DNA of 34,886 bases from assembly GCA_944324895.1 (NCBI GenBank), contig CALUYC010000002.1:1-34886 (forward strand), given 5' to 3'. Positions 3,490-32,859 of this stretch are shown here, piece after piece. This stretch comes from Candidatus Gastranaerophilales bacterium. GTDB lineage: Bacteria; Cyanobacteriota; Vampirovibrionia; Gastranaerophilales; Gastranaerophilaceae. Position numbers and translations under genes: made by a program. How positions within the stretch are numbered: the first letter of the stretch is position 1; each line of letters opens with the position of its first letter. The notes under the pieces were generated by a model. It saw only the letters and a list, made by a program, of their open reading frames with translations, was not told the origin of the DNA and searched no databases.

Positions 3490-3882
3490 ATGGACAATAT
3501 TTCAAAAATAGGCGCAAATGCTAATTTTTATGTAAACAATCAGCCCGTTAAGAAAGAGAATGACGAAAAGAAAGCTCAAGACAGGGAAAACTCGCAACAA
3601 AGTGTAAAAAGCGAGGCAAAAGACCCTGAGGCTATCTTTGAAGCAATGCAAATGAGTGCAATTCAAAACAAAGCGATTGCATTTGGAAAATTTGTTAACC
3701 CAAAAGATTATCTGTCAGAAGATAGGATAAAAGATATTGAAACATCAATGGGTGCTTTTGAAAGCAACACTGAAAATGCAAAAGCTGCGATGGATACGGA
3801 GTTTAAAGGTGTCGGAGCTTGGGAAAATCTATCTGAAGCTCAAAAAATGGCACTTGCTGCAAACATGCAGATTAAAGAATAG
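3490..3882 (+). CDS. Unknown 130-aa hydrophilic protein
   Basis: A 130-aa protein I do not recognise. The ATG has a strong AAGGAG about 7 bases upstream, and codon use matches its neighbours, so it looks like a real gene. The N-terminal 45 residues are rich in Asn, Gln, Lys and Glu and probably disordered. From about residue 46 on it appears helical (EAIFEAMQMSAIQNKAIAFG, ending NLSEAQKMALAANMQ). It has no signal peptide, membrane segment or cysteine. It stands alone: 93 bp after folE2 and followed by a hairpin at 3921-3949, so it may be a single-gene transcript. A cytoplasmic structural or regulatory partner role is possible, but nothing in the sequence points to one. Confidence 0.75.
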   Translation: MDNISKIGANANFYVNNQPVKKENDEKKAQDRENSQQSVKSEAKDPEAIFEAMQMSAIQNKAIAFGKFVNPKDYLSEDRIKDIETSMGAFESNTENAKAAMDTEFKGVGAWENLSEAQKMALAANMQIKE

Positions 3883-3920
3883 TTTACCCCTTATTTGTTC
3901 TTCTCACTATTGTTCAAAAA

Positions 3921-3949
3921 TATCGCCAAAGGATAATCCATTGGCGATA
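3921..3949 (+). terminator. Possible terminator hairpin after the 130-aa protein gene
   Basis: A perfect 9-bp inverted repeat (TATCGCCAA at 3921-3929, TTGGCGATA at 3941-3949) separated by 11 bases, located 38 bases after the stop codon. The tract that follows (ACTTTGATTTATATTTT) is T-rich but interrupted, so this is a moderate rather than strong intrinsic terminator. Confidence 0.5.
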
Positions 3950-3963
3950 CTTTGATTTATATT

Positions 3964-4106
3964 TTACGCTAAGCTCGCTTGACTCACGCATTTGGTACGG
4001 TTACGCCCTGTCGGCAAGGCTCTTCGCCTTCCCGTTCGGGCTTCACACACCCAAGCGCTCGTCTTCGCTTGCTAAGCTTACGCTAAGCTCGCTTGACTCA
4101 CGCATT
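3964..4106. repeat. GC-rich repeat island bounded by a 29-bp direct repeat
   Basis: Two identical 29-bp copies, at 3964-3992 and 4078-4106, enclose an 85-bp spacer. By hand count 3991-4077 is about 60% G+C, far above its surroundings. The spacer can fold: AAGGC/GCCTT at 4016-4030, CAAGCG/CGCTTG at 4052-4071, and a CCCG/CGGG pair at 4031-4040. The right copy overlaps the end of fabI: it encodes the last eight residues (CVSQASLA) and the stop codon. The left copy would encode the same tail and stop on the minus strand. No transposase is present. It resembles a small dispersed extragenic repeat or MITE-like element, but dispersal cannot be judged from one locus. Confidence 0.7.
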
Positions 4107-4893
4107 CCATTTCGTCGAGGGAAGCAAACACGCTTGAAGCGCCGCAGTCAACAAATTGTACTTGTCCTGTTACACCTGAAGACAGGTCAGAAGCCAAGTA
4201 TAAACCTGCTTTGCCAACATCTTCTAAAGACGGCGTGCGATTAAGCGGAGCTTTAAGAGCGTTGAATTTAAGCATTTTGTCAAATCCGCCAATACCTTTT
4301 GCTGCAAGTGTTTTAACAGGGCCTGCGGATAAGCAGTTGCAACGGATGTTAAATTTACCCAAATCAGCTGCAATAAATCTCATTGAAGACTCAAGTGCGG
4401 CTTTTGCTACACCCATGATGTTGTAGTTTGCAACAGCGTGGGTTGAGCCAAGGTAAGTAAGTGCCAAAATTGAACCGCCGCCGGTTTTTTCCATTTGTGG
4501 CTTAGCATATTTTGTAAGTGTTAAAAGAGAATAAGCACTTACATGCATAGCTAAATCCCAGCCTTCTCTGCTTGTTGTATAAAAATCACCCAAAAGGTCT
4601 TCTTTATTGGCAAATGCAATGGCGTGGATTACAAAATCTAATCTGTCATAAATTTTTGCGTATTCTTCAAAAACTTTTTTTACGTCTTCGTCTTTTGTAA
4701 CATCGCATTCTATGCACATTTTAGCGTTCATTTCTTGCGCTATTGGTTTTACTCTTTTTTCCATTGCTTCATTAGCGTATGTAAAAGCAATTTCGCCACC
4801 TGCAGCATAAATTTGCTCGGCAATAGCATTGGCTATACCATGTTTATTTGAGACACCAAATATAATGCCTTTTTTACCGTCCATAATACCCAT
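4078..4893 (-). CDS. fabI: FabI, enoyl-[acyl-carrier-protein] reductase (NADH)
   Basis: A 271-aa FabI, which performs the last reduction of each fatty-acid elongation cycle. It is an SDR-fold enzyme of the FabI type: an N-terminal GVSNKHGIANAIA nucleotide-binding loop (residues 13-25), HAIAFA at 90-95, the FabI catalytic set Y147, Y157 and K164 (YNIMGVAK), and LSAGPVKTLAAKGI at 188-201. AAGGAG precedes the ATG. FabI proteins usually end a few residues after the final GxSxxAxxDE-like strand. Here the last eight residues (CVSQASLA) and the stop codon come from the right copy of the 29-bp repeat, so the native C-terminus appears to have been replaced or extended. Confidence 0.95.
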   Translation of the reverse strand: MGIMDGKKGIIFGVSNKHGIANAIAEQIYAAGGEIAFTYANEAMEKRVKPIAQEMNAKMCIECDVTKDEDVKKVFEEYAKIYDRLDFVIHAIAFANKEDLLGDFYTTSREGWDLAMHVSAYSLLTLTKYAKPQMEKTGGGSILALTYLGSTHAVANYNIMGVAKAALESSMRFIAADLGKFNIRCNCLSAGPVKTLAAKGIGGFDKMLKFNALKAPLNRTPSLEDVGKAGLYLASDLSSGVTGQVQFVDCGASSVFASLDEMECVSQASLA

Positions 4894-30666: not shown

Positions 30667-32859
30667 GTGCTTAATTTAATTAACCCCAAATCAAACGATT
30701 ATGAATTTTTAAACAATTTTGACTTAAACTTGCAATTTGCAAAGTTAAAAGAAATTTATGGTATTTCAGATATTTCTGATGATAGAAAAGAATACCTTTC
30801 AAAAACAATACAAAAGTACGGGTATTTACCTTATCCGCACTTTAAAACACTTGAAGAATTAACAACAGGTGAAATTATTTTTGCTTTTTGCGAAAAACTA
30901 AAACTGGAAGGAACATACGACGGTGAAAAATTCATCCGTTTTTTGAATCCTTCCCCCCTTGCAAGAAGAAAAGTAAAACATTCAAACTGGTTTAAAAAAG
31001 AAGGTCATAACATTAAGCTTATGTCCCTTGCAGGATTGGGTAGCGACTCTAATGTTGCAGGAAAATTTATTGATTGGCTTGCGGCAGTTGTTTCTCTTGA
31101 TTGGGGCAATAAAGAGCTTAATATAATGCCTGCAACCCTGTATTTAATACCTTTTCACCCAAGAGAATTCGGATGTGCTTATCTGCCTCAGTCTTCTGAT
31201 GTATCTCAAAATCTTTGCGACGAAAAAATTGCAAAATTTTTAGGATTAGGTGCAAAAGAACAGGTAAAATTCTTTATAACTTTGGCACAACTTGCAGGAC
31301 ATCCTGTAATTTATGATATTTTGCCTCAAACAGGCAGATTTTCAAAAATTGTCTTAACTCACCCTTATGCTGCGCGTTGGATAGATGTTAAAGAACTTGA
31401 TTCTCAAATAAAGAATTTTAAAAAAGCGCTTAAAACAAACAAATCAAAAACAAGCGAAGATGATTTAAAAGAATTTAAAATTTTAATTTCTTACAAAATG
31501 TCATTTAAAGACAAACAGGAAGAATTAACAAAACGTGTTGAGGAAATAATAGAGCGCGTAAACGGTAAAAAACCAAAATGTGAAGATGACATAACAGAAC
31601 ATGAAAAAACAATAAGAGCTTTAATTGATGAAGGTCTTTGGACTATGCCAGGTGGTGCATGGTGTTCCGCAGGGGTTCCTGTGTACGATAAAATGCATAA
31701 ATCAGGTGAATATCCGACCTTTAAACACTATAATTTTAAAGGCGAAGATGTTACTCATTTTGCAAACCTTGACTGTCAAACACCTTATTACTTTGTTTAT
31801 TTTGAAAAATCAAAATATAACAACAAAGTAAAAGAATTCTTTATTGATTATATGGACAATTTGCAAAAAGAATATAATTTTGACGGCTTTAGAGTTGACC
31901 ATATTGACCATGTGGTAGATGAAGTTTCGCAAAAATCAGGCATGCCTATAAGCTATAGAATACCAAGCAGGGTTTTAGGCGCGCTTAATTCAAAACTTAA
32001 AAAACGCATCCCATACTTTGCAACATTAGCTGAATATATGCTATGGGACGGATATTTTAAAGAATACCACTGCGATATGCACTTTGATCTTCTTTGGGGT
32101 GATGATATTGTTAGTCAGTACATTAAAACACCCGAACAAATAATAAATGATAATATGCGCCTTGAAATTTATAACAACAAGGCTTCAAGGGTAAATCCTC
32201 TTTCTATTTTAAAAGCTTATAACAATCAAGATGGTGAATTTCGTGAAATTGACCAATACCCTGGTCAATTAGGTGAGCAGGGTGCTTTGTTTAAATGGTT
32301 TAAATATAAATTCCTCCCCGGCGGAAAATTCGCACAACGTTCAACTTTATACGTTGATGGCGATGAAAGTTTTACAAAAACAGGCATAGAGCGCATTATT
32401 GGCAATGAAGTTTCTATGGACAGAAACAAAAACTGGAGTTTTTATGAAAAATTCAACGCACTGAATTATTTTGTGCAACACAGTGAACTTATAAGCCGCG
32501 GAAAAGCAGTTTTGCATGTCCAAAGTGACGACGGTTTTTGCTGTTGGGAAATTATAGGAGATAAAAAATCCGATGAAAGTCTTTTTGTTGTTGCAAATTA
32601 CTTTTCACCTACAGAAAAAGTTAATGTAGTTGATGTAAATGGCAATACAAGACGCATGACCAAAAAAGGCAAAGCTGTTTTAAATAAAACAATTAAACTA
32701 AAAGACAACAAAAGACTTAGCGCATTTTATGATTTCAGATTGGATGAAATGCAAAAATGTTCTTTTGTAGAAATTCCTATGCAAGAAGAAATAACAGGCT
32801 CTATAACCTTTGATATCTTGCAACCTGCGGAATTTAAAGTTTATAAAATGTTAAAATAA
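30667..32859 (+). CDS. Divergent GH13-like alpha-glucan-active enzyme
   Basis: A 730-aa cytosolic protein with a GH13 (alpha-amylase family) catalytic core. Region II is FDGFRVDHIDHV (405-416) with nucleophile D411, region III is TLAEYMLWDG (453-462) with acid/base E456, and region IV appears as YNNQD (518-522), giving D522 but with NNQD in place of the usual NHD. Region I is unclear (VIYDILPQTGRF, 215-225, may replace DxVxNH). The first 200 residues are unlike common amylases, and a charged helical insert (about 245-320) splits the barrel. The final 110 residues are beta-rich. There is no signal peptide, so glycogen or maltodextrin is the likely substrate class. The start is GTG, fixed by an in-frame stop immediately before it. 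Hydrolase versus transferase cannot be told. Confidence 0.8.
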   Translation: MLNLINPKSNDYEFLNNFDLNLQFAKLKEIYGISDISDDRKEYLSKTIQKYGYLPYPHFKTLEELTTGEIIFAFCEKLKLEGTYDGEKFIRFLNPSPLARRKVKHSNWFKKEGHNIKLMSLAGLGSDSNVAGKFIDWLAAVVSLDWGNKELNIMPATLYLIPFHPREFGCAYLPQSSDVSQNLCDEKIAKFLGLGAKEQVKFFITLAQLAGHPVIYDILPQTGRFSKIVLTHPYAARWIDVKELDSQIKNFKKALKTNKSKTSEDDLKEFKILISYKMSFKDKQEELTKRVEEIIERVNGKKPKCEDDITEHEKTIRALIDEGLWTMPGGAWCSAGVPVYDKMHKSGEYPTFKHYNFKGEDVTHFANLDCQTPYYFVYFEKSKYNNKVKEFFIDYMDNLQKEYNFDGFRVDHIDHVVDEVSQKSGMPISYRIPSRVLGALNSKLKKRIPYFATLAEYMLWDGYFKEYHCDMHFDLLWGDDIVSQYIKTPEQIINDNMRLEIYNNKASRVNPLSILKAYNNQDGEFREIDQYPGQLGEQGALFKWFKYKFLPGGKFAQRSTLYVDGDESFTKTGIERIIGNEVSMDRNKNWSFYEKFNALNYFVQHSELISRGKAVLHVQSDDGFCCWEIIGDKKSDESLFVVANYFSPTEKVNVVDVNGNTRRMTKKGKAVLNKTIKLKDNKRLSAFYDFRLDEMQKCSFVEIPMQEEITGSITFDILQPAEFKVYKMLK

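Follow-up and report, generated by a model that had tools for sequence, protein, structure and literature searches.

Integron attC sites are folded, occur in tandem and lie at a stop codon in the orientation of the gene. Their structure is kept while the sequence of the stems varies. The small dispersed repeats of cyanobacteria are short and modular, and some are found in genes. GTAG- and CGTC-tagged REPs are short dispersed palindromes that lie next to, or overlap, genes (Di Nocera et al. 2013, PMC3733652). They occur singly or grouped, some are within ORFs, and their ends often provide the TAG stop of the flanking ORF. ERIC/RU-1, RU-2, NEMIS and RPE are MITE-like, non-autonomous elements of about 100–170 bp. 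Their RNAs are folded, and in-frame translation can make them parts of proteins (PMC2229807). Here, we focus on a repeat at the 3′ end of fabI in a Gastranaerophilales bacterium. We consider it likely that this is an array of a dispersed, structured and non-autonomous Gastranaerophilales repeat that docks at stop codons.

We analysed a stretch of 34,886 nt, referred to below as the window. A repeat search identified one direct-repeat family, comprising two 29-nt copies with 100% identity (positions 3964–3992 and 4078–4106) and a start-to-start distance of 114. The odds that a perfect 29-bp repeat at this spacing arose by chance are negligible. The G+C fraction is 0.34 for the window, 0.56 for the whole 143-bp element, 0.61 for the 85-bp spacer (3993–4077) and 0.48 for the 29-mer. 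On the minus strand, which is the sense strand of fabI, the element has a predicted fold of −57.9 kcal/mol (z = −3.84) that was equalled by 0 of 200 shuffles. The spacer behaves similarly on this strand (z = −3.83), and the plus strand of the element folds less well (z = −1.5). The structured core is a minus-strand hairpin, GGTGTGTGAAGCCC...GGGCGTAACCGTACC, with a GAAGA loop (3994–4051); diverged copies elsewhere have compensatory changes. An earlier note on this DNA described perfect 29-bp direct repeats around a foldable spacer of roughly 60% G+C in an AT-rich setting, and all of this was borne out. The 29-mers are not best seen as boundaries of an insertion. Array starts fit better, and congeners have solo or longer arrays at the same site. 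Briefly, copy 1 (AATGCGTGAGTCAAGCGAGCTTAGCGTAA; 4078–4106, minus strand) forms the 5′ edge of the array, with its conserved GCG beginning at 4103 and VSQASLA-stop in frame 2. The spacer (minus strand) would be the remainder of a complete first unit, and copy 2 (3964–3992, minus strand) the start of a second, truncated unit. The simplest reading is that the 29-mers open two head-to-tail units with a period of 114 and are not target duplications. The feature in the window then amounts to a tandem array of 1.25 units. Further on, an 18-bp inverted repeat with T/A runs (3917–3953) separates fabI from the convergent gene at 3490–3882. It is likely to be a bidirectional terminator common to both genes. 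Because this terminator-like sequence lies beyond the element, the fabI mRNA would carry the latter in its 3′ UTR.

The fabI gene (4078–4893, minus strand) encodes an enoyl-ACP reductase of 271 aa, and congener orthologues are 93–99% identical. FabI ends in CVSQASLA (reading ...DEMECVSQASLA), with the last seven codons and the stop given by the repeat. Consistent with the earlier claim, the ORF takes this tail and stop from the right-hand 29-mer, and the same-type frame of the left-hand copy would also read CVSQASLA. The tail had been thought to extend FabI beyond its normal end. A tail is indeed present, but it replaces the native end rather than simply being added to it, because element-free congeners (G004, G006 and G008) end in ECMCKSDN, ECMCQNEA and ECVSKAENNG. 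In 12 of the 15 genomes of the genus, fabI has a related array or remnant that starts from the same nucleotide. Congener fabI genes are identical up to GGAATGC, and those bearing an element have the junction GAATGC/GTGAG in common. Arrays or pieces of related modules are found at fabI in G000, G001, G002, G003, G005, G007, G009, G010, G011, G013 and G014; the fabI array of G012 sits on a separate contig (L127). At fabI of G003 and G009, one remnant is followed by the native flank. The FabI tails of element-bearing congeners are CVSQASLA, CVSRSEA, CASQSEA, CVSRGEP or CVSQSEVLVSR. A 20-mer search found one further Gastranaerophilales MAG contig with an identical fabI end, where a longer-unit array runs off the contig. 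The same tail in FabI of distant relatives had been named beforehand as a refutation; fabI genes of other genera have unrelated ends, without the tail, and the element is absent there. In a tree of fabI and typA, element-free G004 is nested beside element-bearing G000 and G007, with moderate support. Hence, it is likely that the site was reached more than once or that gene ends were exchanged. One insertion in the ancestor of the genus is not clear for the same reason.

Copies of the element are dispersed. The assembly that contains the window is 1.4 Mb in 134 contigs and 78% complete, and all genomes compared are draft or metagenome assemblies. BLAST with the window segment gave 4 matches at E ≤ 0.01 in its own genome and up to 12 in congeners, including diverged relatives of the spacer. 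A degenerate pattern for the edge matched 51 times in 11 genomes of the genus, against 0 matches for the reversed control pattern, and had no match in the other genera tested. These own-genome and congener matches uphold the earlier proposal of a dispersed repeat at the fabI 3′ end. A genome search for both the 29-mer and the spacer had also been suggested. Diverged relatives of the spacer were found, but a search for the exact 29-mer (23-nt part, ≤3 mismatches) returned no copy in its own genome besides the known two. We built a covariance model, R1, of the ~113-nt unit from five real units. It finds the unit in 14 of the 15 genomes of the genus and matches 51 of 191 sampled family genomes, representing 19 of 41 genera. 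Matches in a class-wide sample were confined to the family Gastranaerophilaceae; G045, which is outside the family, has a single R1 copy, in a Mu-like prophage. Copy numbers are very unequal among genera. Since assemblies break in or near arrays at many contig ends (e.g. L132, L134, L139, L140, L143 and L159), these copy numbers are lower bounds.

Units share the conserved unpaired motifs GCGTRAGCC, GUG, AAC, a GNNGA loop, GACGUAGGA and CACAGGAGC. In longer arrays, every unit opens with AATGCGTGAGYC or a close variant, and the next unit is directly behind. Among 91 distinct copies, 92.4% of pair cells hold standard pairs, compared with 70.4% in shuffled and 27–48% in slid controls. In the innermost helix, pairing reaches 99.3% and each pair shows two-sided changes. 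The paired fraction is 92.5% in a second set of 78 distinct copies, of which almost all come from other genera. Although the alignments were fitted to the R1 model, which favours structure, two-sided changes were still far above controls in both the 91 copies (427 against 95 ± 9 expected) and the 78 copies (493 against 135 ± 11). Hence, the GC-rich foldable segment first described is more than a hairpin and belongs to a wider family of structured, covarying elements. The window copy matches R1 weakly and in the hairpin part only (4046–4000, minus strand; E = 0.42); this is the sole R1 match in the window. The window type and the R1 type share the skeleton GTGTGTGAAG-stem-stem-CGTAACCGT, and both stand side by side in arrays, as at typA of G007. 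We assign the window copy to the R1 family, as a putative outlier type, from shared motifs, BLAST-linked relatives and mixed arrays. Rfam 15 gave no element match at E ≤ 1 for the window region and ten element loci. A gathering-threshold scan of 20 further element loci returned tRNA and RNase P only. The literature on repeats or RNA motifs in Gastranaerophilales or Melainabacteria yielded nothing relevant. Some units (L078, L090, L042 and L123) contain an extra nested hairpin, GATGCCCACAAACTCTTAG...TTGGGGTGCG, at one point between GGCGA and TAGGA. The arrays at L029, L076, L083, L091, L093 and L096 are interspersed with a different dispersed repeat, of the type CACCCTGAACTTGTTTCAGGGTCT.

The typical 5′ edge of the element stops all three frames within about 25 nt. 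GCGTRA contains the stop in one frame (A-stop), and the remaining frames are closed as RKPE-stop and VSRSEA-stop. In the window-type edge, the third frame is open for about 20 codons. Gene ends made by the edge, each followed by its stop, are NA, KKA or EKA in frame 1, VSRSEA or VSQASLA in frame 2, and RKPE, RQPE or KPE in frame 3. Those in other genera include IEKA, VLNA, KKKA and RQPE. The earlier note had raised the idea that such repeats bring genes a ready-made C-terminal tail with a stop. Many other genes do end in the edge, and the idea of a dispersed repeat of this sort was largely right.

We next consider where elements lie relative to genes. The weakest part of the following statistics is that gene calling followed simple ORF rules and that the null behind the p-values is uniform (over −40 to +300). 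In a first set, 10 of 20 gene groups had the element GCG −40 to +10 nt from the stop of a co-oriented upstream gene (p = 2e-4), as did 22 of 41 in a second set, mostly from other genera (p = 9e-9). For only those sites not inspected beforehand, the count was 15 of 32 gene groups (p = 2e-5). Conversely, convergent genes on the 3′ side of the element were within range in 1 of 21 cases (Fisher p = 7e-5). Hence, docking has polarity. In about half of the sampled gene groups the repeat is ≤ ~40 nt from the stop, mostly ≤ ~10 nt, and has the orientation of the gene. Sites away from stop codons make up about half of the total; some of them are right after terminator T-runs or near tRNA genes. The docking may arise because insertion is targeted, because the position is needed for function or because copies elsewhere are strongly selected against.

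Individual genes illustrate the docking. The gene at 30667–32859 (plus strand), which we take to be glycoside-hydrolase-13-like, is element-free in the window and ends in KVYKMLK. Its G002 orthologue ends in KVYKM-RKPE through an element copy, giving an empty/filled pair. The TAG stop of typA is completed by the element in G013 and G009. Another module follows directly after the TAA of typA in G007, a degenerate module is present in G004, and other genomes have none. For both genes, sequence beside the site is too diverged for any target-site duplication to be shown. At L144, L243 and L278, in two genera, the element is directly preceded by fragments that resemble the 5′ portion of tRNA genes (GTAGCTCAGCTAA), as if it had entered a tRNA D-loop. 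Repeated tRNA-like fragments occur at L075.

Elements are also found in phages and operons. Mu-like prophages have single copies between their head or tail genes (L026/L027 and L191; names from sequence reading). In a viral collection, the phage-type pattern found one Mu-like tail contig, L191, while the first pattern and the window-core pattern had no match. At L216/L217, a unit separates a small gene from that of a large serine recombinase, both also named by reading the sequence. The frame is open through this unit, and CACAGGAGC occupies the place of a ribosome-binding site. Translation of the unit thus gives a DUF2924-like protein its final ~35 residues, just ahead of the recombinase gene. 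This large serine recombinase is a candidate mover. Separately, a second GC-rich folded repeat (GCGGATTTTGCGGGGCG...GGGTTGCGAG...CGCAATAATCC) occurs at L026 (minus strand, about 2150–2050), L081 and L029. It seems to be common to the Mu-like prophage and the genus.

The element could instead be a functional structured RNA that needs a place after a stop, in an mRNA 3′ UTR or between operon genes, so that its spread was selected rather than selfish. Candidate roles are mRNA protection, termination or re-initiation of translation. We regard this as unlikely, even though the stems covary, the unpaired motifs are conserved, the strand follows the upstream gene and the sense strand folds better. 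At phage L191 and at L216/L217, moreover, the element takes up the space separating two operon genes, with a 3′ end, CACAGGAGC, that resembles a ribosome-binding site. Several observations speak against this reading. Orthologous sites are patchy, with typA and fabI found both with and without the element, and copy numbers differ greatly from genus to genus. The host genes share no function, some copies lie beyond terminators, and a start codon soon after the 3′ end is rare (within −40 to +10 in 3 of 20 groups).

Mobilisation as a REP-type repeat, by a REP-associated tyrosine transposase (RAYT), is a still poorer prospect. Many units do have GACGTAGGA before the hairpin, like a GTAG tag, and GTAG REPs are reported to end adjacent ORFs with a TAG stop (PMC3733652). 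A RAYT-like gene (LPDHIHVILKP) adjoins an element in G002. However, the window copy is without GTAG, the G002 RAYT seemingly has its own REP, GTAGGTTGGGGTTTCTACCCCAAC, and Y1_Tnp is present in 1 of the 15 genomes of the genus (G002 only) and in 3 of 17 high-copy genomes. Of 191 genomes, 62 have Y1 transposases (RAYT-like), namely 18 of the 51 with the element and 44 of the 140 others (p = 0.61). We rejected a RAYT as the mover given this lack of Y1 association over 191 genomes; RAYT loss after the element spread is possible. The RAYT-like gene of G002 (176 aa; contig C3, L073:912–1442, minus strand, and L094) is accompanied by the separate GTAG-tagged REP, copies of which are dispersed in G002 and G011, inside or adjoining arrays. 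MITE terminal inverted repeats were not found, the conserved ends GCGTRAGCC and CACAGGAGC not being complementary. An integron-like recombination site, in which a folded single strand at the stop codon of the preceding gene acts as attC does, is very improbable. It would suit elements that dock at stops in the orientation of the gene, keep their fold while the stems vary and form tandem arrays. Nevertheless, integron integrase scored above the TIGR02249 cut-off in 0 of 191 genomes, with Xer-like scores only, and the integron was rejected on this basis. The neighbours are core genes (fabI, typA and ribosomal genes) rather than cassettes, and across 91 aligned units the ends are, by eye, unlike RYYYAAC/GTTRRRY boxes. 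Hardest to credit is an ordinary local duplication at fabI, outside any dispersed family. The exact 29-mer is indeed confined to this place in its own genome, but the dispersed spacer copies in that genome and in congeners, the fabI junction shared by 12 of 15 genomes and the same edge at many other genes refute it.

We therefore return to a dispersed, non-autonomous element that docks at stops. At fabI, the element has supplanted native C-terminal residues with VSQASLA-stop. Arrays may gain and lose units when these recombine or slip against one another, and an enzyme supplied in trans, working on the folded single strand, could bring the element to new sites. The C-terminal tail would then be a tolerated by-product, and the element, transcribed in the fabI 3′ UTR, may shield the 3′ end of the mRNA. 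A broader proposal is more tentative, and we think it possible rather than probable. According to this, a new structured family, present in many genera and in Mu-like phages, is placed precisely at stops by targeting or by a functional need to be beside the terminating ribosome, and has repeatedly rewritten the C-termini and stops of core genes (fabI, typA and others). A testable question follows: what recognises the stop codon, or selects for a place beside it? The element explains odd C-terminal tails in Gastranaerophilales genomes, which calls for caution among annotators, and its arrays account for assembly breaks there. The R1 unit model could seed a new Rfam family.

Some of this has precedent. 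GTAG REPs that give neighbouring genes their stops are already known (PMC3733652), as are small mobile repeats fused to proteins (PMC2229807). The novelty lies in how large and covarying the unit is, in its distribution across a family of gut bacteria and phages, and in a docking at stop codons that is both sharp and polar. The element and the GTAG/CGTC REPs are both short dispersed repeats that give stops to neighbouring genes. Unlike those REPs, the element is a ~113-nt unit with several helices, conserved unpaired motifs and strong covariation; it is also polar, with its 5′ edge at a co-oriented stop, and not RAYT-associated. It differs from the MITE-like repeats in that no terminal inverted repeats were found. 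Whereas those repeats can offer an open frame, its 5′ edge stops every frame, with one exception that reads through (L216/L217). The small dispersed repeats of cyanobacteria, likened here by description only, belong to the same phylum, are modular and in some cases lie in genes, as does the element. Integron attC sites resemble it in their place and strand at stop codons, in a structure kept with variable stems and in tandem order, but the element has other end motifs and is accompanied by neither an integron integrase nor cassettes.
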